Positions 5,506-37,923 of a DNA stretch of 42,547 nucleotides are shown here, piece after piece; the first letter of the stretch is position 1; every line of letters starts with the position of its first letter. The stretch comes from Stentor roeselii (taxonomy: Eukaryota > Ciliophora > Heterotrichea > Heterotrichida > Stentoridae): the NCBI GenBank assembly GCA_006503475.1, contig RSEH01000340.1, forward strand, positions 1 to 42,547. Reading direction: 5' to 3'. The position numbers and the translations under genes are program-made. The notes beneath the pieces are model-generated. The model saw only the letters and a list, made by a program, of their open reading frames with translations. It searched no databases and was not told where the DNA came from.

Positions 5506-5520
5506 CTAATTTTCAATTAC
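5506..5520 (-). other. 15-base intron 2 of family member 1
   Basis: The sense sequence is GTAATTGAAAATTAG. Removal turns FYR-stop into FYRLNCSDFQW, matching YRLNCSS in the paralogs. It is a phase 2 intron with A at position 10. Confidence 0.93.
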
Positions 5521-5758
5521 CTGTAAAAATTAATATCAATCAAAACCACAAAATACTGTATTCCCTCCTCAGCATAAGATGTAAAAGTTTTAAATGATTG
5601 AGGACTTGGAGTGCCAGTAGTTTTAACTTTTTCCCAAATTTTCATATCGAAGTCAAATGCCCAGAGATCATTTTTATAGCCGAGTTTAGTGGCTCCTCCA
5701 AAAACAAACAATTTTTCTTCAGTTATACTTGAAAAGCCTCCCATAAAGTATCGAGCTG

Positions 5759-5773
5759 CTGCTTAAAGTTTAC
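5759..5773 (-). other. 15-base intron 1 of family member 1
   Basis: The sense sequence GTAAACTTTAAGCAG contains an in-frame TAA. Its removal joins the frames as NPTARYFMGGF, matching the paralogs. It is a phase 1 intron with A at position 10. AG dinucleotides at intron lengths 12, 15 and 18 (AAGCAGCAG) would all keep the frame; only 15 fits the other nine introns. Confidence 0.9.
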
Positions 5774-6017
5774 TTGGATTTTCCTGTGAGGTAGGCATGA
5801 TCTTTTCCCAAAAAGATGTGTTTAATGAGAACTCCCAGAGATCATCATAAAGACAATCGCTGCAATCACCACCGAAGACTGCAATGGAGTTTCTAGTTTC
5901 GAGGAAGATTAGAAGCGAGTTTTCTCGTATTGTTGGAGGTGATCTGGGTTGAGGAATGAAATCAACTTTTAGTGATATGCTAAGAGAGATGAATAAAAGA
6001 ATCCAGAGAGATAACAT

Positions 6018-7323
6018 TTATAAATATGAACAAAATTTTTTTTAGAAGCAAGTAGTTTAGAGTTGATGAGAAATTTGAATGAAGGAAAGGATAGGATTAA
6101 TAAATTAAATTTTTGAGGGCTTTTAGTGAAATTTTTACAGTTGATTTGTGTCTTTTATAAGTCAATTAAACTTAAATCATTAAATTTATATTTTAATAGC
6201 TTTTTTGCTATTTCATATAGGTCAATACCTATTCAAATGAAATTTACATTTGAATTTCAAATATTTTAACAGTTCAAAAATTTTTTTTTTTAGTGATAAA
6301 ACTTATTGAATAATTTTTTTAGTTTATTAGATCTTTTGTCTCGGTAAAACTATTCTGCAATTTTAAGTGAGTTGTAGTTTCTTCCTTAAATATCTTCAAA
6401 CTTAATCACTGATATGATTATCTGATATTCTATCTCACAATCTAATCTAATATTTCATAGAAAAATGAATATAAATTTTTTACTCTGCTCGTTTGTTTAT
6501 CAAACCAAACTTGATTCAGAGTGAATAGTTTCAAATCTCCAAAAAGATAAATAATTATTTGTTTCAATACTTTAAGTTTGATTGATGAATTAAAATCACA
6601 TATATTAGGAGTAAATAAAAACCCGAGACGATTTATCAATAAAGTTAAAGTGAAAATTTTACCTTTGAATGTAGATTCTAATCTGTAATGAGTCAATTAA
6701 GTATAGCAGTTTGTATTCATGCTACCTCTTTTTCTGATTATTTTGAAGACTATCAAATGAGAAATCAGCGATAAATGTTTATAATAAAATTGTCTAGAGA
6801 TCATTTACCAATTAAAATAATTACTAGATCAAGCCAATCTTATAGTTCTTATTTTAATTTTTATCTTATATATAAATCCATATCGGCAAATTTAATTAAA
6901 GAAATTAGAAAATCATGAGTTTCTGTTCCACAGTCAGAAAAAGAAAGGACAGCTTATAGAGAGGGAGTGCCTATAGAAAGATAAGTATATTTATCTTACA
7001 CTGCCTGATTAGGACTACAGCATCACATATTATTCAAATAAAAACTAATTATTAATGAGCACCGCTGATAAGATTATTTAATGGTTTCTACTTTCAATAT
7101 CCAATGAACTATGCTTTGATTTGATGATATATTTTTATCAATTTGTATATTTGATTTTCTTTCTAGTTCTTATTATATCTAAGATTTTATAGGCCACTTG
7201 CAGTCAATTCTCCTAAAGAAAAAATCATATAAAAGATGAGGACATTACAAGATCAATTGAAAGATTCCTCCTTTGAATTTTAACTTAAATCAATCTTTTA
7301 TAGCTAAATTACTTAAAATAAGA
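6018..7323. other. AT-rich intergenic spacer
   Basis: About 1.3 kb of AT-rich DNA between two family genes. The open stretch at 6442-6696 (84 codons, minus strand) shows no convincing similarity to the family and no composition change, so I do not call it. The end near 6018 must hold the promoter of member 1. A TATA-like TTATAAATA on the plus strand sits directly against its ATG. Confidence 0.5.
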
Positions 7324-10300
7324 TCACTGATGATCTTCCTGTTTCTTTTCACCAAGACTATCGGATTCAGATCTCAAAGGAATTGCATCACCCTCAGGGA
7401 CTTTCTTAGCCTCAAGATTACCTAGCTCTCTATTACTATCGGAGCTGTCAATAATTCCGATTTCATTTTTTTTCTTCATCTTTTTCATGACCTTGTCAGC
7501 CTGTTTCTCAGACAAGGCCATAAGAAATCCACTGAGTCCGAAAAGTCCTGAAACAGTTCCAAGCAGAGCCCCTGCAAAAAAGAAAAGATCTTGCTTCAAG
7601 AGTCTTTTGGTGACCAGGACACTGGAGTCGATTTCAATGAAGAGCTTGACATAAAAGTTCGAGACAAACGGCAGTTCTTCAGGAACATGTTGACTTCCAT
7701 AGCCAGGAGAGTTTCTTTCAGAGATGTGATAACCAGTCACTTCGCTTTCCCATTCGCTAGACTCGGACTGAAACAAGGAAGAAGTTGCTGAGAAGTAAAA
7801 CAAACTAGCAGAGGATCCGATGAAGACAGAGCCACTATTTGGCAGAATTAGTGAACTGACAGAGCTGTCTTCATCGGGAATCGAGGAACTCGCTGACATG
7901 GTCAATTGAATGCCTGATGCATAACTGAGGCTTGCAGTGATGTTAAAGTCCACCTGGGCCCCTGTCTTTATTTCTCCATGTTTGCAAGTCACTTGAATGT
8001 TGCAAGTTTTGTTGTTTAACCTGCAAGAAGTTTCAACACTCGAACAGTCAATGTTCAACAAATATGGCTTGATTGATCGAGAACATTTTGAATGCTGTTC
8101 ACAGTCGCCTCCGAATGAATCCAGAGACAGTTGAAAATAAAGGACTTTTGACTCAAATGAGTCAACTTCGGACTCCATGATGATCAAAGGCACCTGCCCC
8201 TTAGTTTCTTGAATGTTCGCTTTAGAAAAAGTCAAAATCGCTGTGCAGGTGACCATAAGTGACCCGATAACAAAAAGTACAGTGAAAAGTCCTCCTATTT
8301 TCGTTTTTTTCTTGGAAACATATTTGCTTTCCTCGTCGTCATGCTGTAAAGTAAACAAATCAATTTTTTGCAAGTAGTTTCTCAGCCTCACAATAGTCAA
8401 GCACATCAAAACAATAAGGAAACTCGGAATGACGACCAAGAGGCGAAAGAGCAGCAAGTCCTGTGAAATGTCAGTTTCTTTGTAAGCAGCGGGCTGATAT
8501 GAACTGATTTTCTGAATCTCCTGGTAAGTCGAAGGACCTGTGCTTCCAATCGGACAAAAGGAACCATCTGGGCAAGGCTGGCACTCTGTAGCAGCCGTTT
8601 CGTTGCTGTAGTACCCTTGAGGGCAAGGAATACATTGAAATCTACTTGTCGCTGCTATTTTCTCGTTGTATGTCCCTGGGCTGCATTCTTTGCACTCTGC
8701 ACTTCCTGGCTCATCGTTAAATGTTCCTTGGGCGCAAGGCTTGCAGATGTTATCTGAAACATAAGTCCCAACAGAGCAGAGAGCTTCACATCCGAAAGAC
8801 TTGCACAAGTCCTCAACATCGAACTTTACAAGCAGCGGGTTCCCCACAAGATGAACAATAAAGTTGTTTCCGCTTCTACCTCCTCCATAGACATACAAAG
8901 TCTTTTGAAAGTAAGCGAAGCCAGCGGCATAGCTATCAAACCAGATCCGATCTTCGAGATCAACTAATTCATTACCAGAACTATAGGCTGTGATATAATA
9001 CATGGCGTAAACATACCAGAATTCCCCCCCAATGCTGATTATTTGATTCCCGACAACAACTTGAGATGCGAAACAACCACTCGAAGAAGAGCCTGATCCG
9101 TCGTTTGAGTGAAAAACGTGCCAGGTCTTCGAAGAAAGATTGAAAAAATCGACCTGGTCAGACCCGAGACTGTTTTCAAGACACCCGAGCGAGACGTAGA
9201 ACAGGTCAGAGTCCAGCCAGCAGTGTGCAGAACTCACTCTCTGCAGACCCTCGGATGAGAGCAGGTTGAACTCGTTTGTGCCGATGTCGTATTCCCAAAG
9301 TTCATTCGAGTTGCCTGAGTTTCTTTGTCCGCCGTAGAGATATATTTTGAAGTTTTTTAAAACAAGACAAGCGCCTTTCGCTGGACTCGGGTTGTAGGAT
9401 GTCACTGGGTTCAATTCAGTCCAGTACCCTGTGATTGAGTTGAAGATGAATAAATCATTTTTCAGTTCACTTGAAGTCATTCCTCCCCAGATGACAAAAG
9501 TGTCGCCGTCCGCACCTGCTGAGTGAAGATACCTTGGAGATGGGATGTCGCCCTTGGGCATCACTGACTCCCAGTATTCATCTATCAGGTCGAAAGTCCA
9601 CAGATCGTTAAAAATAACGCTTGAATCGATTCCGCCGAAAACATAGAGATTCGAATTTATCACTACTGTTGAGGGAAAGGATCTTGCAGGGGGTTGATCG
9701 AAATGGTCGTTTATTGATATGTAATTGAAATCTTTTAGCGATATCTTCCCAAATGTATTGGAAAAAGTGTAATCTGAAGTTTGCAGGTAACTCCCGAATA
9801 TGTATAAAAAGTTATCTATTTCCACAATGACATAATCCATATAATCTAAGAAATCTGGAAAGAGACTCAATTTTTTCCATTTGTTTTGGTCCTCAAGTAG
9901 ATTTATCTTTACAGCATCGAAAGTTTCATCACCGACCTCAAATATGTCTCCACAGAGAAGGTAGAGCTCGTCGTTGAAAATAAAACTGTTAGTTTTACCA
10001 CGGCAGTCATAGGAACTATCTTTGTCAGAGATCAGTGACCAGGTCAAACTTGTCAAAGAATAACTCGATAAGTGTAAAAGATTGCCTCCTTCATTTTTCA
10101 CCCATCCAGTTTGCAAAATATTCCCATTGTAATATTCAATAATAGAGTTACTCGAATAAAGAGGCACTTCTCCATTATTCGGTAGTGTTTCCCACTGAAA
10201 AGAAGAGCAATTGAGTCTAGATAAAAATTACCTGTACATATTTTTATTTCGTCCCTTGTTGGTATATCCGGATTGAATTACGAAATATTGAATTCCTTCT

Positions 10301-10743
10301 GATTCGTATGTAGTGTAAGCATAGCTTGATATTGAAGGTGGGGGAGAAATTGTTTGAATTTTCTGCCACTTGTAGGTCTCGAAGTCGAATTCCCAGAAAT
10401 CATTTTCATAGCCTAGAGTGGTGAGTCCTCCAAAAATGTAAATTTTCGAATCATTTAAACTTGAGAAACCCCCATGAAAAGATCGAGCTTCTATGTAAAG
10501 CTTACTTGGAATCTCGACTGAAGTAATCACAACTTTTTCCCAAGAATTCCACTCTGGACTATATTCCCAAATGTCAGAGTAAAAACAGTCAAAGCAAACA
10601 CCCCCGAAAATTATGAGAGATTCTCTGGATTTCAGGTAAGCTATTAATGGTGCTTCACGCAAAGGAGGAGGTGATCCTGGTATTGGAATGAATTCGACTT
10701 GCAATGAGATGCAAAGACATAAACCTATCAACAATATCCACAT
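7324..10743 (-). CDS. Kelch double-propeller, Cys-rich, three-pass membrane protein (family member 2)
   Basis: Exons of 238, 259 and 2893 bases, joined by removing introns 10491-10505 and 10217-10231, give 1129 residues and end at TGA. Order: signal peptide (MWILLIGLCLCIS); about twelve kelch repeats to residue ~620 (for example YIFGGLTTLGYENDFWEFDF and VFGGIDSSVIFNDLWTFDL); a GCC2/GCC3-like Cys stalk at ~635-725 (CPQGYYSNETAATEC); TM1 at ~752-777; a short basic loop (KKKTKIGG); TM2 at ~808-828; a ~210-residue exoplasmic loop with six clustered cysteines and N-glycosylation sites; TM3 at ~1043-1068 (FFFAGALLGTVSGLFG); and a charged cytosolic tail. Kelch propellers bind proteins or sugars, so a surface receptor or adhesion role is inferred; no enzyme motif is visible. 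It is intact, which makes it the reference for the broken neighbours. Confidence 0.88.
10217..10231 (-). other. 15-base intron 2 of family member 2
   Basis: The sense sequence is GTAATTTTTATCTAG, with an in-frame stop just inside. Removal joins NKNMYR to LNCSSFQWETL in frame. It is a phase 2 intron with A at position 10. Confidence 0.93.
10491..10505 (-). other. 15-base intron 1 of family member 2 (no stop inside)
   Basis: The sense sequence is GTAAGCTTTACATAG. It is read through as SKLYI in the open frame, so simple ORF calling would keep it as coding. It sits at the same position and phase as the stop-containing introns of members 1 and 3 and has A at position 10, so it is very probably spliced. 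Confidence 0.85.
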
Positions 10744-13664
10744 TTTATATACGTAATAAGTTTAATCTTAGCAGAGTATATAATTATTTGCGTAGTTTTG
10801 ATAGAAGGTATAGAATTTTGGTATATTTTTTGAATTTACGACATTTTAATATGAGGGAAATCTATGTATATGGAAAACCTTATTAATTAGGATTTATCAC
10901 AAGTAACTCTCTAAAGCAATTGAACCTTATTCAAATCTATACAAAATTTTATTCTATACCTATTTCCTCCGATATTATAAAATTATTCTTATTGAGAACT
11001 TGCTTATTGGGCATTTTGGTATAAGAAAATATTATAGACATATTGGAATTCTCAAGATTTCTATCCCTAATTCTTTTATTAACTCTAATCTTTACATTTT
11101 AGCCAATTTTTCTTGAATACTTATGAAATTTAATTGAGATTCTTTTTATAATCTTAGATTCTAAAATTTTATTGGTACATCAAATAAACCTAAAGTAGGG
11201 TTTTCTGCTGAAATTAACTTGGGCTGGTTTCTTTGAATTATATATAAATTAATTAGTTATTTGAAAAAATAATGGTTTAGAAAATATTTGGTGTATGTTT
11301 ATTTTAACTCTCTAAAAATGTACTGATTTAAGTGCATTATTTTTTTTAAATATTTAAAAACAATTTTCCTTTATTGTATCTAGACAAGCAGTTATTGATA
11401 GTGAGCTACAGTTATTTTATGATTCCAATTTCCTATAAATTAATTTTTAATTCGATATTTCTGAATTAACAGTGATTAAATTCAAGTTTGAACCATCCTG
11501 ATATATGCCCTTTCATAAGAAAAAGGTGAGCTAAATAATGTTATATTAATTTCTCCTTAAGTCGATATTTATGTATTCAAATTTCTTATAAAATAACGCT
11601 AATAAACACTATAGTTGATTTTAAATCAATTGAAGGTTTAATCAGCAAGTTAGGCACAAATATGTGTTTGATTCAAATACTCTTCCCAGTAACTAATTGT
11701 CTCAAAAATATGATAACCAGTTTTCCTTCACCAATAATACAACTGAAAGGAAATAAAATAAGGATTAACTTGAAAAAAATTGATACTGCAAGCAAATATA
11801 TTAAGATTCATTTGGATCACACCTCATTCATAGATTATCTATTGATGTTTATGAAATGATCACAAATTTTACATAAAAAGTATTTCAAAGTAATCTTTTT
11901 TAATTCGAATGATAATAAGAGGAATACTTTCACAAGCTTTTAAGTTTGATAAAAGGTTTCAGTTTTTTCCATAAAGCATCAATAGAATCTATCCATTCAT
12001 ACAAGAGATTTAATTTTACCATTTTGATAATTCTCGAAAATTCATTTTTAAATAATTGATTATCGTTTTTTAATTATCCTTAATAGAAAATTCATCTTAT
12101 ATAAACAATTTAATGATTTAAATATTCATATATTAAAACCACTTAGATTTGTCAACTATAACTAAATCAATAAGAAATGAATTTAAAATATCTAGTCCGT
12201 GCAAAATACTTCGATAATAATATGGAAAAAGTTTAGATGCAAAAAAAACTGCTTTTGCATTATTAGTAAGTTTTCAAAATAAAATCTAAGTTAAATAAAA
12301 ATATTATTATTGATTTTTCAGTGTCTTTTTCCAGCTATAATAACAAAACATTTTAGCTAATCAAGTATATTTGTTGTGGACTTATCAGATTTAATTTTTC
12401 AATATTAAATTTTCTAGTTAAATTCTAAGAAATAATTTAAGGCCTATCTATAAAGTTCAATAATATCGAGTTGTCTAGTTAAGTCGAGATACCTCATAAA
12501 ATGCCCCAGGTGAAATTTAAATCTAATGAGATAACTCAAGTGAAGCTATTAAGACCTTTTTCACGAAAAGCAACAACAAATTTTTAAGGAAATTTTCCAA
12601 AGAGTGAACCACTGAAGACATTTAAGACTCTCTGATTTCAGTAGGTAATTATTTGTTATTCAAGGTGAAAAGATTTCTTTGATAGATGAAATCAATTCTC
12701 ATATAATTTAAAAGTAAGTGAACATTATGAATTAAGACAAAATTTAGGTATATTATCTTATTATATGCAAAATATCATGTGGAATAGGAATCGATGATTT
12801 AATTATAAAAATGATTTGTAAACGTCTGAGCTTCCTTAATAGTATTATATTGGTTTTTAATAATATTCTAGAAGCAAGATTATCAGATACTAAGATTTGC
12901 AAAACGATTTATCGTAATAATCAAGCGATTAATCATTTTTATAACTAATTATGGCCAAACAATGATTTAAAACTTGACCTGATTAATATCAATAGTTTTT
13001 TTTCTTCTAATGATCAGTTTTTTTTAATCTCTAAATATTTTTTTTAACAAAAGTCATAAAATTTGATACCCATACCTGAAAAAGTATGTTAATAAATAAT
13101 ATTTTAGCTACTTAAATCTAAAATATGGTTATTAATACCTAATTCAAAACTAATATTATAGATTGCATATAAAATTGAGTTAGAAGTTTGGGCCATGTGT
13201 TTAAAAACTTTATTTGAGGCTACTAGAACTATAACTTTTGAAAATAATGAATAGTTCATTTATAATTCAATCCATGTGTAAATGCATGCAAGAATATTTA
13301 TATAAATTTTTACAATGCATAAATCTTTTGATTACTTATCTCTTAATGAAATCAGTTATTTTATGAAAAAATTGTATAAGGTTTATTTTTAAAGCAAATT
13401 TTCGGACTCTTATCGATTAAATATTATGATAATAGTTAGTCTGACTCAGGTTGTTAATATAGATACCAATATAACTTCAACAAAGAATAAAAAAGATTAT
13501 TTCATCTTTAAAACAAAAACTAATATTATCAATAAATTAAGCCTATCACGGTGCTATTTTAAGGGAATCCTAATAAAAAAATATTGAAATAAAAATTACT
13601 TATACTCAATCAACCATTTTCATATATTTTCAATACCATTTTAACTAACTATTAATCATGTTCC
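10744..13664. other. Long AT-rich intergenic region
   Basis: This is 2.9 kb of AT-rich DNA, the largest gap in the window. The longest open stretches (10704-10886 and 11662-11859, plus strand) are short, biased to AT codons and resemble nothing I know. I find no RNA gene, mobile-element frame or family remnant. The left edge carries TATATAAA immediately before the ATG of member 2. Confidence 0.5.
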
Positions 13665-16600
13665 TTATATTTCTTGAGATTGCAGAGGATTATTCGAATC
13701 TGGTACCGAAAGTGCTCCAACATTATCATTTTTACTTTTTTCATCAGAATTTTCCTTAATAAACATTTTTCCTTCCGGGTCACTTGAAACAATTCCGGCC
13801 TTAAACCTTTTACTGACTCTTTCATATTGCTGTTCAACAAAACTCATAGCAAGGCCAGTAAGTCCAAAAAGTCCAGAAACGGTTCCAAGCAATGCTCCTA
13901 CAAAAAAGAATCCATCCTGCTTCAAAAGTCTTTTCGTGATCAAAACACTAGAGTTGATTTCAATGAAGAGTTTAACATACAAGTTAGACACAAACGGAAG
14001 GTCTTCAGTGAAATGTTGACTTCCAGGCAAGGGACTAGTTCTTTCCGAGATATGATAGCCAGTTATTTCCCTTTCCCAGTTTTTCGACTCAGACTGAAAC
14101 AAAGAAGGAGTTGCTAAAAAGTAAAACTCACTTGCAACGGACCCAATGAAGACAGAGGCGTCATTTGGCAGTAACACGGTACTCACAGAACTGTCTTCTT
14201 TGGGTATTGACGAACTCGAGGTGATTGTTGCTTGAATTTCTGTTGTGTAGCTGAAGTGCTCAGTGATCTCGAAGTTTACCTGAGCTCCTGTCTGGATTTC
14301 TCCTTCTTTGCAAGACACTTGAACGGTGCAGGTGTTGTTGATGTTTGACATGCATGTGATTATAATTTGAGAGCATTTAATGTTCAGTAATTCAGGCTTT
14401 ATTGACGAAGCACACTCAGAACTGTCCCCACATTGGCCGCCGTACGACTTTAAAAACAACTCAAAAGAAATAAACTCGGACTCGAATCGTGAAACTTCAG
14501 ATTCCATGATGACCAAAGGCACCTGGCCTTTTGTTTCTTGAATGTTTGCTTTGGAAAAGGTCAAAATCGCTGTGCAGGTCACCATAAGACATGCCAAAAC
14601 GAAAATAACTGTGCAAAGTCCTCCTATCTTAGTTTGCTTCTTTTTCATGAAGTTGCCTTGTTCATAATTGTGCTTAACATCATACATGTCCAGCTTCGCT
14701 AGGTAATTTCTTAGTCTACTCACAGACAGTAAGCAGAGAACCAAAGCAATACTTGGGATAACGACTAAAAGTCGAAAAAGCAGCAGGTCTTCTGAAATAT
14801 CGGCTTCTTTGTATAATGAAGGCTGATGAGAACTGCTTTTTTGCTTTGACTGGAATGATGACGGGTTGATGCTTCCAACTGGGCAAAATAAATTGTTTGG
14901 GCATGGATGACATTCAGATGCCCCAGTTTCATTTGAATAAAATCCTTGAGGGCAAGGGATGCATTGAAATTTACTGGTTGCTGCAGTTTTGTTGTTAAAA
15001 CTTCCTGGGTGACACTCTTGGCATGTCGCGCTTCCTTGTTTATCGCTGTATGTGCCACTTTTACATGTCTCACAACTGTCGTTGGATATGTATGTCCCAG
15101 CAGAGCAGAGGGCTTTGCATCCGAAATAACTGCAAATGTCCTCAATATCAATCTTGTAAAATAATGGACTCCCGACGAGAGGGGAGATGTAATAGAAACC
15201 TCTTCCTCCACCAAAGATATACAAGGATTTCTCGAAATAGGTAAAACCTGCTGCGTAACTAATTTGGTCTATGTCATCTTCATGTGACAGTATTTCCTCT
15301 CCTTGTAAAAAAGCCCTTATGCTTAAAGAAGGATAGGAATTCCAAAGTTGGCCCCCTATGGTTATTAAGTAATCTCCAACCATAACCTGGCTCGATACAG
15401 AAGGCGGGTAAGCATCTCCATTATCATGATGAAAGATGTTCCACGTCATCGACGAAAAGTTGAAAAAATCTATTTGGTTCGACCCATTACCATTAGATTT
15501 TCTGCCAAGAGAAACATAGAACAAGTCATCATCAATCCAGCAAAAAGGAGAAATCACAGTTTGAAGTCCTTCATCTGATAAGAGTTGAAATTGATTAGTG
15601 CCAAGATCATATTCCCAAAGTTCATTGGACTTAACCCCATTTCTTTCTCCGCCATATAAAACTACTTTGAAGTTTTTCAAAGCTAAACAAGCACCTTTTG
15701 CAGGACTCGGATTAAATGAAGTGACAGGTTTGACCTCAGCCCAATGGCCTGTAATCGAGTTAAAAATAAACAAGTCATTTTTCAACCCGACAAAGCTTTC
15801 TCCTCCCCAAACTACAAAAATATCTCCATCAGACCCAGCAGAGTGAAGAAATCTTTTAGAGGGAATGTCACCCTTGGCTTGGACTAGTTCCCAGACTTCA
15901 GAAATCAAGTCGAAAGTCCAAAGATCGTTGAAGAGAGTGTCTGAATCGATGCCTCCGAAAACATAGAGTTTCGTGTTGATGGCTACCATTGAGTGATAAG
16001 ACCTGGCGGGGGGCTGAATGAAATGAGACCCGATCAGGTCATAACTGAAATCTTCTAAACTGATGATGCCAAGTGTATTCGAAATGTCACGAAAAGTGTC
16101 CCAGGTGTAGCTTCCAAAGATAAAAATAAATTCTTCAGTTTCCACAAGTGCAGCGTCTATATTATCTGCCCAATCAGGGAAGGGATCAAAGTATTTCCAT
16201 TCTTTTTTCTCGTCTAGCAAATTAACCTTTCTGAAGATGGATTTTTCACCATTAATAGTGTCTCTCCAATAGAACATAACATAAAGTTCATTATTATAAA
16301 GGAAGCTCCTCGAGCCTGTCCCAATTCTTTCATCATTCATTTCAGAAACGATTGACCAGCTGAAATTTTTTAAAGAATAACTATAAAGATAAGGAGAGGT
16401 GTCAGGATTCTCTGAATACTGCAAAAGGTTTCCGTCGTAATAATGAATAAAAGCGTACCATGTAGTAAGAGGAGCCTCTCCATTATTTGGAAGCTTTTCC
16501 CATTCAAAAGCAGTTAAGTTAAACCTAGATGCACGTTACCTGTAAATATCATCTGAATTTCCTGTCCAAGTTGCTCCTGCTTGGATTATAAAATATTGAA

Positions 16601-17057
16601 TCCCTTCTTCAGCGTAAGTTGTGAAAGCGTATTCAAACATTGACGGTGGCCGCGGAACTATTTCAATCTTCTGCCATTTGTGAGTCACGAAGTCGAACTC
16701 CCAGAAATCACCTTCAGGGCCTGAATTCGAAAGTCCTCCAAAGATGTAGAATTTTGACTCGGTAAAACTTGAGAAACCTCCTGAATAACATCGAGGGGCT
16801 GATTAAAACTTACCAGGGGACTCCAGAGAAGATATGAAGACCTTTTCCCAGGAAAATGAAACTAATGAAAACTCCCAGATATCTGAAAAGAATTGCTCAG
16901 TGTCGGAACCGCCGAAGATTATTAAGGATTCTCTGGGTTGTAGATAAGATGTGAACAGATTGTGACGGGGTTGAGGAGGTGATCTTGCTGGCGGAATGAA
17001 ATCAACTTTCAATGAAATACAGAGGTGGATACCCACTATTAGTAGCCATGATTGCAT
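13665..17057 (-). CDS. Kelch double-propeller, Cys-rich, three-pass membrane protein (family member 3)
   Basis: Exons of 244, 259 and 2860 bases, joined across introns 16799-16813 and 16525-16539, give 1120 residues ending in TAA. The middle exon has no ATG and would be missed by ORF scans; I translated it and it is fully open (PRCYSGGF, KFYIFGGLSNS, EGDFWEFDF, YFIIQAGATW). The signal peptide is MQSWLLIVGIHLCIS, followed by KVDFIP. The kelch array, the Cys stalk (CPQGFYSNETGASEC), the three membrane segments, the six-Cys loop and the tail follow the family order. The kelch face differs more from member 2 than the membrane core does: NIQETKGQVPLVIMESEV and FFVGALLGTVSGLFG are nearly unchanged. 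The likely role is a surface receptor or adhesion protein, inferred from architecture only. Confidence 0.88.
16525..16539 (-). other. 15-base intron 2 of family member 3
   Basis: The sense sequence is GTAACGTGCATCTAG. Removal joins DDIYR to FNLTAFEWEKL, matching YRLNCSSFQWE in the paralogs. It is a phase 2 intron with A at position 10. Confidence 0.93.
16799..16813 (-). other. 15-base intron 1 of family member 3
   Basis: The sense sequence GTAAGTTTTAATCAG contains an in-frame TAA. Removal joins SLESP to APRCYSGGF, matching the family. It is a phase 1 intron with A at position 10. Confidence 0.93.
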
Positions 17058-18499: not shown

Positions 18500-21400
18500 T
18501 CAATTCTGAACCAGAGAATTATTATGTTCAGTCCCTGAAATTATAGATTCAATTGGAATATTCTCAATTTTTACTTCTTTACTTTTAAAAATTTTGTTTG
18601 TGACTTTCGGTTGAGGAAAAACTTTTTTCTTCTTCAATTTTTTCATCAGTTTCTCTAAATACTGTTCAAAAAGACTCATAAAAAAACCAGTTATTCCAAA
18701 AAGTCCTGAAACAGTTCCTAACAAAGCCCCTGCAAAGAAAAAAAGGTCTTGTTTCAAAAGTCTTTTTGTGATAAGAACACTTGAGTTGATTTCAATTAAG
18801 ACTTTTATATACAAGTTAGAAACAAAAGGCAGGTCATCAGTGATATGTTGACTTCCATATACAGGACTGTTCTTTTCAGAGATATGATACCCAGTTATCT
18901 CACTTTCCCATTTTCTAGACTCTGACTGGAACAAGGAAGGAGTCACTAAGAAAGAAAATTCACTTGGAGTAGATCCAATAAAAACATATCCACTACTGGG
19001 AAGCAATAATGAACTGACTGAACTATCTTCATTTGGAATTGAAGAACTCGCAGTTAAAGTCAATTGAATTCTTGAAGTGTAACTCAGACTTCCAGTGATG
19101 TTGAAGTTTACTTGAGCACCTGTTTTTATTTCTCCATCTAAACAAGTTACTTTAATTATGCAAGTTTTGTTATTGTGCAGTATGCAGGTTTTTTGAGTGT
19201 TGAAGCATTTTATGTTTGATAAGTGTTGCTGGATTGAATCAGCGCATTCTGTTTTGTTTATACACTGCCCACCGAAAGCACTTAGAAAAAGAGAAAAAGA
19301 CAGTGATTTCGACACAAATGATGAAACTTCAGATTCCATTACGATTAACGGTACTTGACCTTTTGTTTCTTCGATGTTTGATTTTGAATACGTCAAAACT
19401 GCTGAAGAGGTTATCATCAGTGACCCAATAATGAAAAAAAATGTAAAAAGCCCTCCAATTTTAGTTTTTTTCTTTATAATATAATCACTTTTTTCATCAT
19501 CATGCTGAAGAGTATAAAGGTCAAGTTTTTCCAAGTAATTTCGGAGTCTCTTGATGAATAAACAACAGATAACAAAAAAAAGGCTTGGAATAATGACCAA
19601 AAGTCGAAAAAGCAACAAATCTTTTGAAAGATCAGGCTCTTTATATGATGAAGGCTGAGACGAACTCACCATTTTTAAATCATCTAAGGCTAAAGGGAAA
19701 GAGCTGCCAACTGGACAAAAAAAGTTATCTGGACAAGTTTGGCATATTTTAGAAGCACTTTTGTTACTGTAAAAGCCTTCTGGACAAGGAATGCATTGAA
19801 GTTTGCTTGTTGCTGAAATTTTACTGTTGTAAGTTCCTGGTTGGCACTTTTGACAGATCGAACTTCCTTGTTGATCGTTAAATGTTCCTTCATCGCAAGG
19901 TTTACAGGAATTTTTAAAAGAATAAGTGCCAGCAGAGCAGAGAGCTTTACATCCAATATTTTTACACAAGTCTTCAACATCAATCTTGGCAAAAACTGGA
20001 TTTCCAAGCAAAGAAGAAATAAAAGAATCTTCACCTCTTCCTCCTCCATAAACATATAAAGACTTGTTAAAATAAACAAAGCCAGCTGCGAAGCTTTCAA
20101 AATTTATTTTTTCTTTAAGATCCACTCTCTGATTTCCTGGTCCAAAATAGGTAATAGTGTCTAAAGTACGAAGATGCCAATACTCACCCCCTATACTGAT
20201 AACATGATTTCCGAAAATAACCTGATTTGAAAGAGAAATTTGATATATTGACCCGTCATCAGAAGGATTGTGAAAAACTTGCCAATTCTTTGATGTTAGA
20301 TTGAAAAAATCGATCTGGCCAGAACCATATCCAATATCTGTACACCCAAGTGAAACATAAAATAAATCAGAGTCTAGCCAACAAAACGGAGAACTTACCT
20401 TTCGCAAACCATCAGAAGATAGAAGATCGAATCCATTTGTCCCGATATCGTATTGCCAAAGTTCATTTTGCATCTCTGAATTCCTTTCCCCTCCATACAA
20501 AAAAACTTTGAAGTTTTTTAGTACCAAACAAGAGCCTTTCGTAGGACTTGGGTTGTTTGATGTTCTAGGTTGAAGTTGAGTCCAGAAACCAGTAATCGAG
20601 TTAAAAATGAACATTGAATCTTCCAACCCGTTGTTACTTACTCCTCCCCAAATGATGAAAATATCTCCATCTGAGTTAGCTGAGTGAAGATATCTTGGAT
20701 TAGGGATATCACCTTTCGCCTGTAGTAGTTCCCAGACTTCAGATATCAAATCAAAAGTCCAGAGATCATTATAAATAGTCCCTGAATCAACTCCTCCGAA
20801 AACAAACAATTTTGAGTTGATTAGGACCATTGAATGATAAGATCTTGGAGGAGGTTGCACCCAATGATCATTAATCAATTGATGTTTGAAATCATTTAAA
20901 GTGATTTTACCGAAAGTATTAGAAAAGTAACTTTTTGAGGTATTTGTGAAACTCCCGAAAATATAGACATCGTTTTCTATTTTTACTGAAGCTAGTTCAA
21001 AATAATCTATAATATAAGGAAGCAGGTTTAAGCTTTTCCATTCTTTGGTATTTTCTTTTAAATTGACCATTACACTATTATATTTATAATTTTCAATTTG
21101 ATACACCATAGGACATGCTAAATAGAGTGCATCTTCGATGATAAAGTTTATTGGACGATATGTGCAATTTAAAGGGTAATTGATTTCAGAAATTAATGAC
21201 CATCTCATTGTTGTAAAAGAATAATTGTATAAAGATGTAAACCTAACCTCCAAATCCATCCCTCCAGTCTGTAAAATATCTCCATTATAATACATGATTA
21301 TCGATCCAATTGAAGAAAGAGGTGCCTCTCCGTTATTTGGAAGCTTTTCCCATTGTAAAGAACTACAGTTTAATCTAAATGGCAAGTACTTATACATATT

Positions 21401-21901
21401 GTTTGTTAGGCCGTTTTTAGTTTTTCCTGATTGAATCACAAAATATCGAAATCCATCAGCGAAAAAACTAGTGTAAGCATAAGCTGATATTGGATCTGGC
21501 GTTGAATAAGTTTGAATTTTTCGCCAAGTACTTATGTCAAAGTCGTATTCCCAGAAATCATTTTTTCGACCTAGTTCAGAATGGCCGCCAAAAATATAAA
21601 GTTTAGATTCATTTAAACTTGTGAAACCACCGAATTGCATTCGAGCTTCTATATAAAATTTACGGGGTACCTCTAATGAAGTGACAATCACCTTTTCCCA
21701 AAAAAATGACTTCAAAGAAAATTCCCAAAGATCATTATAGTAGCAATTCGCATAATCACCCCCAAAGACTATAATCGATTCTCTTGATTTCATGTAGTCT
21801 ATAAAGGTATTTTCACGAAAAGGAGGAGGGGATCTAACTGCTGGAATGAAATCAACTTTGAGTGAGAAGCAGACGTAAATATTTAGAAACAACAACAACA
21901 T
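18500..21901 (-). CDS. Kelch double-propeller, Cys-rich, three-pass membrane protein (family member 4)
   Basis: The open frame runs unbroken from 21952, but its first codon there is TTG. The first ATG, at 21901, gives the family-type start MLLLFLNIYVCFSLKVDFIP and an exon 1 of 238 bases, exactly as in member 2. Two stop-free 15-base introns (21649-21663 and 21375-21389) sit at the family positions; removing them gives exons of 238, 259 and 2875 bases and a 1123-residue protein ending in TGA. Twelve kelch-like repeats can be counted, from VFGGDYANCYYNDLWEFSL to LYVYGGGRGEDS, suggesting two six-bladed propellers. A Cys stalk, TM1, TM2, the six-Cys loop (CINKTECADS) and TM3 (FFFAGALLGTVSGLFG) follow, with a lysine-rich tail. 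It is divergent from the giant gene to its right and is the last member of the array in the window. Confidence 0.88.
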   Translation of the reverse strand: MLLLFLNIYVCFSLKVDFIPAVRSPPPFRENTFIDYMKSRESIIVFGGDYANCYYNDLWEFSLKSFFWEKVIVTSLEVPRKFYIEARMQFGGFTSLNESKLYIFGGHSELGRKNDFWEYDFDISTWRKIQTYSTPDPISAYAYTSFFADGFRYFVIQSGKTKNGLTNNMYKYLPFRLNCSSLQWEKLPNNGEAPLSSIGSIIMYYNGDILQTGGMDLEVRFTSLYNYSFTTMRWSLISEINYPLNCTYRPINFIIEDALYLACPMVYQIENYKYNSVMVNLKENTKEWKSLNLLPYIIDYFELASVKIENDVYIFGSFTNTSKSYFSNTFGKITLNDFKHQLINDHWVQPPPRSYHSMVLINSKLFVFGGVDSGTIYNDLWTFDLISEVWELLQAKGDIPNPRYLHSANSDGDIFIIWGGVSNNGLEDSMFIFNSITGFWTQLQPRTSNNPSPTKGSCLVLKNFKVFLYGGERNSEMQNELWQYDIGTNGFDLLSSDGLRKVSSPFCWLDSDLFYVSLGCTDIGYGSGQIDFFNLTSKNWQVFHNPSDDGSIYQISLSNQVIFGNHVISIGGEYWHLRTLDTITYFGPGNQRVDLKEKINFESFAAGFVYFNKSLYVYGGGRGEDSFISSLLGNPVFAKIDVEDLCKNIGCKALCSAGTYSFKNSCKPCDEGTFNDQQGSSICQKCQPGTYNSKISATSKLQCIPCPEGFYSNKSASKICQTCPDNFFCPVGSSFPLALDDLKMVSSSQPSSYKEPDLSKDLLLFRLLVIIPSLFFVICCLFIKRLRNYLEKLDLYTLQHDDEKSDYIIKKKTKIGGLFTFFFIIGSLMITSSAVLTYSKSNIEETKGQVPLIVMESEVSSFVSKSLSFSLFLSAFGGQCINKTECADSIQQHLSNIKCFNTQKTCILHNNKTCIIKVTCLDGEIKTGAQVNFNITGSLSYTSRIQLTLTASSSIPNEDSSVSSLLLPSSGYVFIGSTPSEFSFLVTPSLFQSESRKWESEITGYHISEKNSPVYGSQHITDDLPFVSNLYIKVLIEINSSVLITKRLLKQDLFFFAGALLGTVSGLFGITGFFMSLFEQYLEKLMKKLKKKKVFPQPKVTNKIFKSKEVKIENIPIESIISGTEHNNSLVQN
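21375..21389 (-). other. 15-base intron 2 of family member 4 (no stop inside)
   Basis: The sense sequence GTACTTGCCATTTAG is read as YLPFR if unspliced. Spliced, the junction reads NNMYKLNCSSLQW, matching YRLNCSS in the paralogs. It is a phase 2 intron with A at position 10. Confidence 0.85.
21649..21663 (-). other. 15-base intron 1 of family member 4 (no stop inside)
   Basis: The sense sequence GTAAATTTTATATAG is read as RKFYI if unspliced. Spliced, the junction reads VPQARMQFGGF, as in the paralogs. It is a phase 1 intron with A at position 10. Confidence 0.85.
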
Positions 21902-25800: not shown

Positions 25801-28800
25801 ATCGGTTTCTACGTCGACAAAAACGGTGACTGTGACATCTGCAAAGTAGGCTGCACTGAATGTGAAAGCAAAGACATCTGCAAGAAATGCGAAAACGGTT
25901 TCTATCTCGAAAAATTTTCTGAAACTCTTGCAGTTTGTCTTCCATGTTCAACAGGCTGCATGATATGCGAAGAGAATTCTTGCAAGGTATGCAAAGATTC
26001 TTATTATTTGGACCTGATCACTGAAAGTTGCATTTCTTGCACAGTGAAAATTCCAGGGTGTTCTTGGTGCTCAAGTCCAAAGAAGTGCGACAGTTGTTTC
26101 GTTGGATTCGCTCTTGATTCTGATTCGTTTTGCCGGAGGTGCAAAGATGGGTGCATTGATTGTTTCATGGAATCTTTCAATGGGCAGACTGCCGAAGTGT
26201 GTAAAACTTGCAACTCTTCTTATTTTTTAAATCAGGGTAGGTGTAAAAGATGCCCTGAAAATTGCTTGAAGTGTGGAGATGAAGAGACTTGCTTTTTGTG
26301 TCAAAAGTTTTACTTTATTGATAGTTACTTTCAATGCTCGGCTTGTCTACCAAATTGCTTAAGTTGTCGAGATAAGTTAAGTTGTGATAAGTGCAACACG
26401 GCTTTTTATTGGGACCTGAATTCCCAAAAATGCACGAATTGTGAGACAGGATGCGAGAGCTGCACTTCAAATGGCTGTAATTCATGCAAAAGAGGGTTGT
26501 ATTTGAACTATACAACAAATATGTGTGAATTCTGCACATCAAATTGCAATAATTGCCAGTCATTAAAATATTGCATAACATGCGATCCCGAGTATTTTTT
26601 TGATGAAAAATCATTAAAGTGTCTTCAGTGTCCTTCAAACTGCCGAGAATGTTCATCTAAAACAGAATGCTACTCTTGCTATACAGGTTATATGAATAGT
26701 GGCGGGCTTTGTAGTCAATGTCCTAAATATTGTGAAATTTGTAAAACTTCAGGGTGTGTACATTGTTTCGAAAAGTACTTTCTTGCATCAAATAATATTT
26801 GTACTGAATGTCCGAATCATTGTCTTCATTGTGAGACTGCATCAAAATGTACTGTGTGTGAGACTGGTTATTTTAAAACTTCTTCTAATTCTTGTGAGAA
26901 ATGCGATCAAAAATGCTTGTCATGCACCCAAGAAAAATGCCTTATATGTATGGATGGCTTCTTTAAATTCAACAATTCTTGTTCTCTTTGTCCAAAAAAC
27001 TGCAAATATTGTGTAGATGGTAATATGTGTGAGTTATGCTACCAAGGTTTATTCATCAATCCCATAACAGGACAATGCGAACGTTGTCTTGATCCAGGTT
27101 GTGAGATATGCTCATCTGAATCTTCTTGTGACTTGTGCAAACCAGGTCTTCTTAGAAATGTAGATGGAATCTGCTCAACTTGCCCAATATTTTGCGTTGA
27201 ATGTGACCATGGCAATAAATGCATCAAGTGCTCTAAAGGCTACTTCCCTGATTCAAAATCCGGAATGTGTTTCAAGTGCCCAGTTTATTGTGAGGATTGC
27301 AATAGCTTTACTAACTGCAAAAAATGTGCTGATAATTTCATCACAAAGGCTGACGGGACATGCATTCCTTGCATGAGAGACTGTCTATCCTGCGAAACAG
27401 GAAATACTTGCAGACAATGTGAAAAAGGCTCTTTTCTAAACATCACAAGTCAATGCGCGAGATGCAACAAGGGATGCATTCATTGCTCGAAACTTGAAAA
27501 CTGCTTCGAATGCGACAACAAACTTTTCTTAACTGATTCAGTTTGTCGACCTTGCACGGATTCAAAGTGTTTAAAGTGTCCAGGAAACAAGTGCAAAGAA
27601 TGCTTAGAAGGATTTTTTTTGGATTCTAATCAAATTTGCACTAAATGCTTTAAAGATTGCGCGTTGTGCTCAGTATTCAATGAATGCCAAGCTTGTAAAT
27701 CGGGATATTTTCTTGTTGAAAATGATTCGAAATGTGATAAATGTAGACTTCTTTGTTTAAGTTGCAATAGTAAAAATGAATGTTTTACCTGTCAGTCTGA
27801 ATTTTTCCTTGATCCTAATACAAGTCCAGCTTCTTGCACAAGATGTCCTTCAAAGTGTGAAGCTTGCTTAGCAGATCTTTGCTTAAAGTGCATATCTGGA
27901 TACTACTTAGGATATACAGGTCTCTGCTGGGAGTGCTCTAGAGGCTGTGAAATTTGTCAAAATGATAAAATATGTGATAAATGTAAAGAAGGATTTTATT
28001 CTAATGGTCTTGCTGTTTGCCAACCATGTCCTAGTCCTTGTATTAAGTGCAAAGCAGAGAAAATTTGTGAGGCCTGCACCTCCAGATTTAAATTAACCCC
28101 AGACCGTTCATGCATTGCCTGTCCAGAAGGTTGCGAGTCCTGCGATGACCTAAACAGATGCTATTCCTGTTCCACCAGTTTCATCTTAGAAGGCACATCC
28201 TGCTTTACCTGTTCAAATCCCGAAGTCCTCAGCATAGAAATCTCAAAAGATTTTCTTTCACTAGAAGTGAACTTCACATCACTTCTGGACAAAAAGCCAG
28301 TTATCTGCTCCAAAGCCATAACAACAAACGACACTTTCGGGGAAAACTGGAAATGTTCAATAAAAGAAAAGACCTTAAAAGTAATTTTTGGAAAAGACTT
28401 TTTATTAGACGAGTATTCAAATATTTCTATTTATACAGACCAGGTCTTTCACCGTCCTTGCCAAGTTAAAAAGATGTTCAGTTTAAAAGCTTCTTTTATG
28501 GAAACTCCTCCATCGCCTTCAGGCACTTTGAAAGGCTCGACTCAAGCTTCTCTTTTATGTGAAAACTCAAAACTTGACTACTACGTCGACAACGTCGAAG
28601 GAACTTTTGGTTTCGATCCAGTCTTAAAATGGTCTTCTTCATATGAAAATCCAGAATTTTCTATTTTTCTGGAAAAATTTAAAGAAACTCGAATTTTCAT
28701 CCCTATTTCAAAGTTCAATAAAATAAAAACTCTTTTAACTGTATTCGTTGAAATTTCTAATTGTTTCAAAAGAACAACAGTTTTGAAAATTGATACGAAT

Positions 28801-31706: not shown

Positions 31707-31916
31707 CTAAAATTCAAATAATCTCTTCAAACAAGAGATTCCTAAAAGATCTTCTTTTTCTTAAAAACCCTTAACAACCCTTTCCATCACTAAAATTAAT
31801 AATCTACTCTCCTAAAATTCAAATAATCTCTTCAAAACAACAGATTCCCAAAAGATCTTCTTTTCTTAAAAACCCTTAACAACCCCTTCCATCACTAAAA
31901 TTAATAAACTACTCAT
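31707..31916. repeat. Tandem duplication, about 105 bases x 2
   Basis: Two adjacent copies with a period of 105 bases (for example TAAAATTCAAATAATCTC at 31708 and 31813) differ at only a few positions. They fill almost the whole gap between two convergent genes. Each copy contains AACCCTTAACAACCC, which resembles the telomere unit with one extra T and one extra A. The duplicated segment probably holds the 3' ends of both transcripts. Confidence 0.9.
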
Positions 31917-31919
31917 CCC

Positions 31920-32606
31920 TTACCCTTCACCAACAAACTCATCTCCACTTTTCCCTTTCTTCCTCTTATCAACTTTCAGTTTTTTTTTCTTATTATTCAA
32001 AAACAAAGTCTTAAAAATTTCCATAGTAGCAGCAGCGTCTTCAACACTAGAATGTTGTCCAGTTTGAATAACTTTTCCCAATGTCTGAAAAGTGAGTTTT
32101 TGCAAAGAAACCAAGGCATTCCCAGAGCTTTCCGCATAAAGTGTTTGAGTATCTCTAACTTTTTCCTTATCCAAAGTGATTTTCAAGGCTTTTAAGTCAT
32201 GATGAAGGGCATGTCCAACAACGATCTTTCCTTTAATAATCCTTTTAACCTGTTCCCTGACCTCCTGAAAAGACTTTGCGTATTTAAGGTGTCTGGCTCT
32301 TATTCCAGTGACAAAAGTTCGATAATTGACGACTTTTTCATCAGGTTTCACGAATAAATCTAGAAGGACTTCACATTCCATGTTTACAATGCTTACCCTT
32401 GCAAGGCAGTTCTTATCGTTTTCAGTGCTGACCATTTCGCAGTCAAGAGCCACGAAACTTTCACTTGTTGCTCCTGATGGGCGGTAGTCAGGGTTTTTCT
32501 TCCAGTTTGAATCGACCTGGCTTTCTTTTCGATTTCTTTTTAGAGGAAGCTTTGGACGGCTTAGGTCTTGAAAAATTTTCAACATTTCGTCTTTTTCACT
32601 TTTCAT
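31920..32606 (-). CDS. REXO4: REXO4-like RNA exonuclease (DEDDh family)
   Basis: A 228-residue protein with the DEDDh 3'-5' exonuclease core. The visible catalytic set is D55 and E57 in ALDCEMV, D137 in HALHHDLKAL, and H185 and D190 in QHSSVEDAAATM. The words DCEMV, VVNYRTFVTGI and GQHSSVEDA place it with the REXO4/Rex4/ISG20 branch, which trims RNA and acts in pre-rRNA processing in the nucleolus. Basic N- and C-terminal tails (KLPLKRNRKE and KKKKLKVDKRKKGK) fit nucleolar targeting. Length is normal for the core, with a short N-terminus. It converges with the giant gene across the tandem duplication, and its ATG lies four bases from the ATG of an opposite-strand small ORF. Confidence 0.9.
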   Translation of the reverse strand: MKSEKDEMLKIFQDLSRPKLPLKRNRKESQVDSNWKKNPDYRPSGATSESFVALDCEMVSTENDKNCLARVSIVNMECEVLLDLFVKPDEKVVNYRTFVTGIRARHLKYAKSFQEVREQVKRIIKGKIVVGHALHHDLKALKITLDKEKVRDTQTLYAESSGNALVSLQKLTFQTLGKVIQTGQHSSVEDAAATMEIFKTLFLNNKKKKLKVDKRKKGKSGDEFVGEG

Positions 32607-32610
32607 TATT

Positions 32611-32847
32611 ATGACGGATAGTGATGGGTTTCACTTACCTATTCTTAGAAGTTACAAACAACAGATGGTTTTTGAGAAAGGAATGAATAAGTCTTGTAGG
32701 GATACTGTCAATTTCACTTTGCCTTTGATATCTCAGAGGTTTTTACCTTTGAAAGTAAGAGGGTCTTTCCAACGGAAAAAAAAAGAATGTTGCAGTTTTT
32801 TGAGACAGGACGTCCAAGAAAAGTTAGAACCAAGCGAGAACTTCTAA
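32611..32847 (+). CDS. Small hypothetical ORF, 78 residues
   Basis: A 78-codon frame from ATG to TAA between two well-supported genes, on the strand opposite REXO4 and just before the 1042-residue gene (14 bases from stop to the next ATG). The product is basic, with no signal peptide, membrane segment or motif I know. With only four bases between its ATG and that of REXO4, the two 5' leaders would overlap. It may equally be part of a shared promoter region. I found no 15-base intron that links it to the next gene. Confidence 0.35.
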   Translation: MTDSDGFHLPILRSYKQQMVFEKGMNKSCRDTVNFTLPLISQRFLPLKVRGSFQRKKKECCSFLRQDVQEKLEPSENF

Positions 32848-32861
32848 TTGTATAATTAACT

Positions 32862-35990: not shown

Positions 35991-36008
35991 ATCCCAAAAT
36001 AATAAATA

Positions 36009-36395
36009 ATGGCCGAAGAGGCAAAATCCTTTGAAGACGACATCGAAGAATTCGAAAACCTAGGAGACAAGGTAAAAATCCTTTCAATGATGCGAAACAT
36101 GCTAAGATCCGAATCAAAACCCATGAAAAAAGTAGAAATTTTCACAGAAGACAACAACAACATCTACCCGACCTTCTGGTACAAAGACCGTCAAATCGCT
36201 ACTTGCCGAAAATGCGGTAAAACAGGTGACTCAATAACAAGCAAAAAATTAGGTCTAGGAAACTTTTCATGTTGTTGTTGTTTCTGCTTCTTATGTCTCT
36301 GGCCCTGCATTCCAATAATGTGTTGTTTAGTTTACGACGTCTGTCATTCCTGCCCCTACTGCAAAGCTGAGTTGGGTGTAAAGACCTTCATCTAG
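36009..36395 (+). CDS. LITAF-domain protein
   Basis: A 128-residue protein with a C-terminal LITAF (SIMPLE-like) zinc domain. C66xxC69 (CRKCGKTGDS) and H113-x-C115-P-Y-C118 (HSCPYCKAELG) form the zinc knuckle, and between them lies a Cys-rich hydrophobic stretch (~87-108) that in this family inserts into the cytosolic leaflet of endosomal and lysosomal membranes as a monotopic anchor. The acidic, helical N-terminal ~45 residues carry no PPxY motif that I can see. LITAF proteins recruit ESCRT and sorting factors. The gene starts 18 bases after the previous stop and ends in TAG 19 bases before the spinster-like transporter, another endolysosomal protein family. Confidence 0.88.
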   Translation: MAEEAKSFEDDIEEFENLGDKVKILSMMRNMLRSESKPMKKVEIFTEDNNNIYPTFWYKDRQIATCRKCGKTGDSITSKKLGLGNFSCCCCFCFLCLWPCIPIMCCLVYDVCHSCPYCKAELGVKTFI

Positions 36396-36414
36396 TTGAT
36401 AAATATTCATAAAA

Positions 36415-37923
36415 ATGGCAAAATGTTCCCTCGGCTGCCTTAATTTGTCACCAGTCGCACTTTTAGCTTACTTCTGCCTGTTGAACATCTTGATGTACAT
36501 CGACCGTGGCGCTGTGGCTTCTTTGGTCACTGCTTTCGAGGATGACCCGAATTTACATCTGACCAACTTCCAGGCAGGCGTCGTCGGGTCGGTCTTTATG
36601 TTTGGTTTCATGATTGCAAGTCCTATCTTCGCTAATGCATCACAGTCGGTGCATGCTTTCACTTTAATCACTGTCGGAGTCACTATTTGGGCAGGGTCTT
36701 GTCTTTTGGCTGGAGTTTCTAATTCTTTTGGACTCTTGGTCGCAGCGAGAGCGCTTTCTGGAATTGGAGAAGCTAGCTTTGTTTGTCTTGCATCTCCGAT
36801 TATTTTATCGAAGGCACCCGCGGATAAGAAAAACTTGTGGATATCGATTTTTTATAGTGCTTTGACTATTGGGTATGCTTTGGGATATGTCATTGCACCT
36901 CCTGTTAAAAATGGATTTGGAGGGTGGCAGTACGTATTTTTCCTCGAAATGATCGCAAGTGCCCCATTCATAATAATCGCTTTTTTCGCATACCGAGACC
37001 CATCTCTAATGTTTAAAAAAGAGCAAAAAGTGAGTATGATAGTTCAATTCAAAGAGCTCTGGAAGAACAAAGTCTATTGTTTCATGGTTCTGGGTTACGG
37101 TGCATTCACATTCACAGTCGGAGGACTGGCCTTTTGGGGTCCAGCGATCTTACAACGCGAGTACAATAAAAGCGAAACAGTGGCAAGTATGAGTCTCGGC
37201 TTCATCACGATTTTCTCAGGACTAGTCGCGACAGTCTTAGGTTCAGTGATCCTCGAGAAGATGTTAAAGCCATACCGATTAGAATTCGAAGATGGAAAGA
37301 TAAGCATGAGGAAGTACTCTTACTACATCACTGAAAAAGCCAATAAAGTCATCACAAGAGTCGCAATTGGTTGCCTCATTGTTGGACTTGCCGGAGCCAT
37401 CTTCGCTCCGACCCTCCCTGGCCCGAAGGGCCAGGGCCCTTTTGCTTTTTTTTTACTTTGTCTTTGTATCAGTGAGTTTTTGCTTTTTTTGTAAATGATA
37501 TGTAGAGGAATTGGACCTTCAAATATGGGAATTATGAATACTGTTGAAAATGATTTGAGACCACAGGCTGTCGCGGTTTCTATTTTCTTTATGCACTTGC
37601 TTGGAGACTTTCCTTCACCGTTTTTGATTGGAGTTATTAATGAATCTGTTAGTATGTACTTTGGGACTATTGTTCTTATGGGCTGGATGAGCTTTTGTTG
37701 TGTTTGTTGGATGATTGCTTTTGGAATCGCTGTATGAAATATTTAGAGGTTTCATGGAGCTCCTATGGAATATGTTAAAAGTCACTTTTGTTCAAGGAAT
37801 ATTGTCAAGCAGGAGGATGATAGAAGATTGATCACTGCTGATAATGAAGATGATAAAGATGATTATCACCAGGCGAGTATTGAAAAAAGTATCAATCGGT
37901 TAAGAGAGGATGAACTGTATTAG
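36415..37923 (+). CDS. Spinster-like MFS transporter
   Basis: Exons 36415-37490, 37506-37731 and 37747-37923 give 492 residues ending in TAG; without removal of the two 15-base introns the frame stops twice. It is a twelve-helix major facilitator protein of the spinster (SPNS) branch: LMYIDRGAVASL in helix 1, LTNFQAGVVGSVFM, ARALSGIGEASFVCLASPII in helix 4 and, after the first splice, GIGPSNMGIMNTV and FFMHLLGDFPSPFLIG, the typical SPNS late-helix words. Spinster proteins export lysosomal lipids or sphingosine-1-phosphate with proton coupling; the substrate here is unknown. The C-terminal tail is cytosolic and acidic (ITADNEDDKDD). It follows LITAF by 19 bases. A perfect GC-rich hairpin lies in its coding sequence 55 bases before intron 1. 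Confidence 0.92.
37416..37436 (+). repeat. Perfect GC-rich hairpin inside the spinster-like coding sequence
   Basis: CCCTGGCCC, loop GAA, GGGCCAGGG: a nine-base perfect stem in an AT-rich gene, followed within a few bases by long T runs. It is translated as LPGPKGQG. A smaller CGGAG/CTCCG pair (37392-37410) lies just upstream. It resembles a bacterial terminator in form only. Confidence 0.85.
37491..37505 (+). other. 15-base intron 1 of the spinster-like gene
   Basis: The sequence GTAAATGATATGTAG contains an in-frame TAA. Removal joins SEFLLF to LGIGPSNMG in frame. It is a phase 2 intron with A at position 10. Confidence 0.95.
37732..37746 (+). other. 15-base intron 2 of the spinster-like gene
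   Basis: The sequence GTATGAAATATTTAG contains an in-frame TGA. Removal joins MIAFGIA to RFHGAPMEYV and opens 58 further codons to TAG. It is a phase 0 intron with A at position 10. Confidence 0.93.

Follow-up and report, generated by a model that had tools for sequence, protein, structure and literature searches.

Introns of exactly 15 bases with a probable branch adenosine at base 10 in a Stentor roeselii contig

Introduction

How can a spliceosome handle introns of only 15 bases, and how much of what it needs is written in those bases themselves? Contig RSEH01000340.1 of the Stentor roeselii assembly GCA_006503475.1 raises the question. Bases 1–42547 of this contig form the stretch analysed here (the window), in an assembly of 44,391,514 bases and 522 contigs. 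An original prediction, made from the letters of the window, had placed ten introns in it, in two unrelated gene types. Each was given as 15 nucleotides (nt) long, with a GTA start, an A at base 10 (A10) and a TAG or CAG end.

Results

The ten introns and their host genes

All ten 15-mers were recovered exactly where they had been placed, with GTA as first bases and A as base 10. The 3′ end was TAG in eight and CAG in two (5759 and 16799). The strand is minus for the eight 15-mers at 5506–21649 and plus for those at 37491 and 37732. Conceptual excision of the 15-mers fused open frames into recognisable kelch and transporter proteins.

The kelch-type genes are four tandem paralogs, all on the minus strand: paralog 1 at 2602..6017, paralog 2 at 7324..10743, paralog 3 at 13665..17057 and paralog 4 at 18500..21901. 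Paralog 2, the only one put through a Pfam scan, carried kelch domains and Ephrin_rec_like; in paralog 1, removal of both introns fuses the frame. Both intron positions were common to all four genes. Intron 1 is in phase 1 and lies at 5759..5773, 10491..10505, 16799..16813 and 21649..21663 in paralogs 1 to 4, respectively. Intron 2 is in phase 2 and lies at 5506..5520, 10217..10231, 16525..16539 and 21375..21389. Bases 1–3, 10, 14 and 15 were invariant across the paralogs in both introns, to which intron 1 added base 4 and bases 7–9, and intron 2 base 13. Downstream of intron 2 in paralog 1 (5506), at about 5300–5505 on the minus strand, the frame shifts; this break marks a pseudogene, an error in the assembly or some feature not yet recognised.

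The second host is a spinster-like MFS transporter gene (36415..37923, plus strand), coding for 492 amino acids once its two introns are removed. Its best solved matches were SPNS2, with an E-value of about 1e-28. Intron 1 (37491..37505, plus, phase 2) falls inside the gapless alignment with SPNS2. Intron 2 (37732..37746, plus, phase 0) falls outside the aligned stretch and is supported by frame and motif. As the four kelch paralogs have the same two intron positions, the ten introns amount to four independent positions.

If retained, seven of the ten introns would bring a stop codon into frame: both in paralogs 1 and 3, intron 2 of paralog 2 and both in the transporter gene. The other three, at 10491, 21375 and 21649, would leave the frame open, 15 being divisible by three; for them the evidence is their alignment with the paralogs.

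Length and base preferences in a position-blind scan

We scanned 21 sequences (242,547 bases), namely the window plus twenty 10-kb pieces of contigs C1, C2, C3, C5, C10 and C20, which are a non-random draw. A candidate had to have GT and AG ends and two open flanks, with the frame broken unless the candidate was removed; base 10 was ignored. Fifteen dinucleotide pairs served as controls, at five settings. Unless stated otherwise, the numbers below are for the loosest setting, with flanks of at least 40 codons and 150 in all.

The number of candidates at 15 nt was 32, whereas the controls had a mean of 4.3 and a maximum of 14. Among lengths 9 to 45, only 15 nt rose above its own control maximum. 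It did so at all five settings, and far so at the four stricter ones. At 14 nt we found 6 candidates (control mean 2.4, maximum 7), with A at base 10 in five of the six, and at 16 nt 3 candidates (control mean 4.7).

Although ignored by the scan, A10 was present in 29 of the 32 candidates of 15 nt, and in 23 of the 25 that lie outside the window. Base 13 was C or T in 29, base 4 was A in 28, and base 9 was T in 20. At the third base, next to the imposed GT (AG was likewise imposed), 27 candidates had A, 4 had G and one had C. A GTA start is favoured and not invariant; by the control mean, about four of the 32 would be false. The bases behind A10 showed no fixed A, with 14/32 at base 11 and 11/32 at base 12.

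Codon-usage models of introns were also tried and judged weak, and the open-frame scan took their place. A first run returned zero candidates at any length, and the next one 9 at 15 nt (control mean 0.5, maximum 3). With a different codon model there were 5 (control mean 0.9, maximum 4) when the setting was loosest and almost none under its two stricter settings.

Information carried by the 15 bases

A matrix was trained on the 25 candidates that lie beyond the window, with no filter on A10, and used to rank the 238 GT-N11-AG 15-mers of the window. The top eight were all among the ten introns, and nine of the ten were in the top ten. The transporter intron at 37732 had the lowest score of the ten (9.0) and ranked 20th. 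The introns that would stay open if retained, 10491, 21375 and 21649, ranked 3rd, 7th (tied) and 1st. Outside the GT and AG ends, base 10 held the most information (0.96 bits), with 0.78 bits at base 3 and 0.70 at base 4. On the question of what else the spliceosome reads, which the original prediction had raised, the answer is that length and a few bases carry most of the intron signal; further cues are compatible with this.

A genome search for GTAN6AN3AG had been proposed, so as to compare spliced with unspliced matches. By itself this loose pattern showed no genome-wide excess, with 20,800 matches against 27,064 when read backwards (all genome-wide counts cover both strands). The fuller 15-nt pattern GTAAN4TAN2TAG had 1597 matches, against 783 read backwards. 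Its 16-nt forms had 188 (A11) and 191 (A10), and its 19-nt form 286; here the backward-read counts exceeded the forward ones (776, 1174 and 765, respectively), backward-read patterns being poor controls, with a different base order. For the 16-nt forms the comparison is with a single frame-matched spacing, 19 nt, and this control is inflated, since some of the listed 19-nt matches look, by eye, like a 15-nt intron followed by NTAG. The fuller pattern is present in 8 of 28 candidate introns. With the background taken as about 190 to 370, this suggests that the genome holds some 4,000 to 5,000 introns; as 8/28 is a small sample, the total may lie anywhere from about 2,500 to 10,000.

Within the window, GTAN6AN3AG matched 19 times, nine of them outside the set of ten introns. 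Seven of these nine were antisense to genes, and the two in sense orientation scored at most 6.1 (gene bounds are approximate). One sense match, GTAATAGAGAGCTAG at 7422–7436 on the minus strand, lies in kelch paralog 2, leaves the frame open and scores 6.0; it is probably not spliced.

Long open reading frames (ORFs) were searched for high-scoring 15-mers with a matrix that included the window introns. In 150,315 bases, 5 sense 15-mers reached a score of at least 12, compared with 1.7 in codon shuffles and 0 antisense; intron 21649 is one of the five. No excess of sense 15-mers was seen in these ORFs at thresholds 8 (19 vs 19.7) and 10 (8 vs 7.0). The idea that selection favours an in-frame stop when an intron is retained was also considered and dropped. 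Such stops were found in 21 of 29 introns (score at least 12, open-frame context) against an expected 64% or so, a difference that is too small; the expectation assumes an even spread over the three phases and is biased, as it comes from introns that were found by requiring a stop.

Intron look-alikes in coding sequence were counted for 24 combinations of length and pattern. The most depleted were those of 16 nt with the A (8 vs 21.8 expected from codon shuffles, z −2.86). Look-alikes of 15 nt with the A were not depleted (25 vs 22.4, with introns 21375 and 21649 among the 25). Low counts of plain GTA..YAG were seen at 12, 13, 15 and 16 nt (z −2.0 to −2.8). Because 24 tests were made, the depletion is only a hint. 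One reading of these counts is a stricter ruler than in Stentor coeruleus, with 16-nt introns nearly absent and coding sequence selected against 16-nt look-alikes. It draws on the genome-wide counts (188 and 191 for the 16-nt forms, 286 for the 19-nt one) and on the 8 sense look-alikes against 21.8, and we consider it unlikely.

Genetic code

In the 242,547-base sample, 94 ORFs had at least 200 codons and ended with TAA (48), TAG (31) or TGA (15). Their 50,105 codons contained 518 TGG and no in-frame TGA, the latter being zero by construction; the longest ORF had 2952 codons. Some of the ORF-ending TAGs probably lie in introns, and four of these ORFs run on for 382–654 codons. Downstream of the 15 ORFs that end with TGA, another stop (TAA or TAG) came up in frame after a median of 4 codons, compared with 7 downstream of TAA. 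With a TAA or TAG so near, TGA acts as a stop codon, in line with the standard code.

Spliceosome components and a possible mechanism

Searches aimed at U1, U2 and U6 gave one match each above the cut-off: U1 with ACTTACCT, U2 with GTAGTA and U6 with ACAGAGA. CWC25 starts with MGLAFLNKKSW, having glycine at residue 2 only and no Gly2-4 run. For ISY1, the alignment with the worm protein begins at residue 11 and that with its human counterpart not until residue 33.

With these components, the major spliceosome would remove a fixed 15-nt unit. Its predicted layout is a 5′ splice site GTA(A), U-rich bases 5–9, a probable branch adenosine at base 10 and a pyrimidine-AG at bases 13–15. The footprint that U1 and U6 usually occupy and the one that U2 usually occupies at the branch would share bases 5–6. 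Because these overlap on the intron, full simultaneous pairing of U1 and U2 looks impossible; recognition may be sequential, or the U2 pairing short. Branching at A10 would give a lariat loop of 10 nt and a tail of 5 nt. We infer from sequence both the identity of A10 as the branch nucleotide and the order in which the small nuclear RNAs bind.

The distance from the 5′ splice site to A10 is 9 nt, and 5 nt follow it. In humans the working minimum between 5′ splice site and branch is about 50 nt, the U6/5′ splice site helix and the U2/branch helix having to form apart (PMC6692369). The branch geometry had been called extreme for the 5 nt behind the A. The short spacing stands, but its more extreme side is the 9 nt before the A, compared with about 50 nt in humans.

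Weighing the explanations

What the sequence shows is the introns as gaps in the proteins, their length, their base preferences, and genes for U1, U2 and U6 that carry the customary recognition motifs. Sequence, homology and statistics agree that these are real spliceosomal introns, as had been predicted, with A10 as the probable branch. Our reading, to which we give a probability of about 0.93, is that they are ordinary major-spliceosome introns of a heterotrich (Stentor-like) nuclear genome with the standard code, probably removed as a fixed 15-nt unit that branches at A10. That the motif arose by chance in an AT-rich genome might be suspected from the loose pattern, given its nine non-intron matches in the window and its lower count forwards than backwards. 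However, with open frames or the fuller pattern as a requirement, the excess is specific to exactly 15 nt, which refutes chance for the set as a whole, and the nine non-introns are either antisense or low in score, although three sense GTG 15-mers score higher (see below). We give this explanation practically no weight. That some of the 15-mers, chiefly those at 10491, 21375 and 21649, are short in-frame insertions that are translated is compatible with their open frame. Yet these three share positions with paralog introns that carry stops, the paralog proteins align without them, and a matrix trained outside the window ranks them among the best of the 238. Translated insertions are thus very improbable.

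A slightly better case, still an improbable one, can be made for real introns in which A10 is not, or not always, the branch. It would then be fixed for another reason, e.g., contact with a splicing protein, and branching would use a neighbouring A or a variable site. The textbook yeast branch site has an A directly before the branch A, whereas here base 9 prefers T (20/32), and pairing with U2 in the usual register would be weak; we also infer, rather than observe, the branch role of A10. Against this, A10 is the most informative base outside the ends, and neither base 11 nor base 12 offers a fixed A in its place. Furthermore, in the 16-nt introns of S. coeruleus the A shifts to base 11 and so stays equally far from the 3′ end (PMC9505925).

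Several observations weigh against introns of a fixed 15 nt with a fixed A10. Identity among the paralogs was 0.53–0.80 in the introns and 0.53–0.82 in the flanking exons; the introns are no more diverged than their surroundings, so that a fixed A10 among the paralogs is weak evidence alone. Three of the 32 blind candidates lacked A10, where about four false candidates are expected. One 15-nt candidate, GTAATTCACGAATAG at position 5620 of L021 (plus strand), has G at base 10, with a second candidate close by at 5454, and it is plausible that it is a real exception. Three GTG 15-mers in sense orientation within uninterrupted ORFs of the plus strand (34435, 27857 and 33238) scored 9.9–10.2, above the intron at 37732; each is either a decoy or an in-frame intron that went unrecognised and leaves the frame open. 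Regarding length, 14 nt exceeded the control maximum at the four stricter settings (6 vs 4, 4 vs 2, 4 vs 2 and 4 vs 1), and 31 and 44 nt, and likewise 13 nt, did so at some of them. The 14-nt candidates are found in L025 (positions 683, 4116 and 4889), L014 (two) and L016 (one), and could stem from single-base errors near A runs.

Comparison with other ciliates

The 15- and 16-nt introns of S. coeruleus were reportedly first described by Slabodnick in 2017, as told by papers citing that work. In this species 8173 of 8806 introns have 15 nt and 633 have 16 nt; a probable branch A is at base 10 in 8005 of the 8173, and at base 11 in most of the 16-nt introns (Nuadthaisong 2022, PMC9505925). Mainly 15- and 16-bp introns are also reported for Blepharisma stoltei, in a 41 Mb somatic genome with 66% AT (PMC9942806). 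The remark that very short introns are known from Stentor and Blepharisma agrees with both articles. The fixed A, which had been said to stand out across two gene types, is present in ten of ten introns, but it has been published for S. coeruleus, and the ten stand for four independent positions. The case repeats a published Stentor rule and extends it to a 44.4 Mb genome, adding a measure of how well the 15 bases discriminate and a hint of rarer 16-nt introns.

The introns agree with those of S. coeruleus in their 15 nt, GTA start, AG end and A10, and the genomes agree in the standard code, the conserved U1, U2 and U6 motifs and a CWC25 without the glycine plug (Gly2-4 of the human protein; PMC9505925). 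They differ in that no excess of 16-nt introns is seen here (3 candidates vs a control mean of 4.7); as about 2 would be expected, this is not telling. The N-terminus of ISY1 is described as strikingly non-conserved in S. coeruleus (PMC9505925), whereas ISY1 here aligns with the worm protein from residue 11, though with the human one only from residue 33.

The compact genome and introns predominantly of the 15/16-bp type are shared with B. stoltei (PMC9942806). In B. stoltei UGA codes for tryptophan, whereas TGA behaves as a stop here (15 of the 94 long ORFs, median 4 codons to the next stop, 518 TGG). PMC10946202 reports that species other than four which it names have no conserved A near the 3′ end, in a set that may or may not include B. 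stoltei. About 95% of heterotrich introns are given as 15 bp (PMC11441545). Loxodes magnus, from the sister group of the heterotrichs, likewise has very short spliceosomal introns, but with a mode of 17 bp, a negligible share under 16 bp and a depletion of lengths in multiples of three (PMC11441545).

The overall picture of heterotrich splicing is unchanged by this case. Lying far below the human distance of about 50 nt (PMC6692369), 15-base introns provide a test of how a spliceosome handles both ends of an intron at once.

Other genes of the window

The longest ORF, at 22828–31686 on the plus strand, is a single open frame of 2952 amino acids with a partial-length match to the Giardia VSP family (PF03302); its product is probably a large cysteine-rich surface protein. 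A protein with an RNase_T exonuclease domain is encoded at 31920–32606 on the minus strand, and one with a CBM20 starch-binding domain at 39604–41226 on the plus strand.

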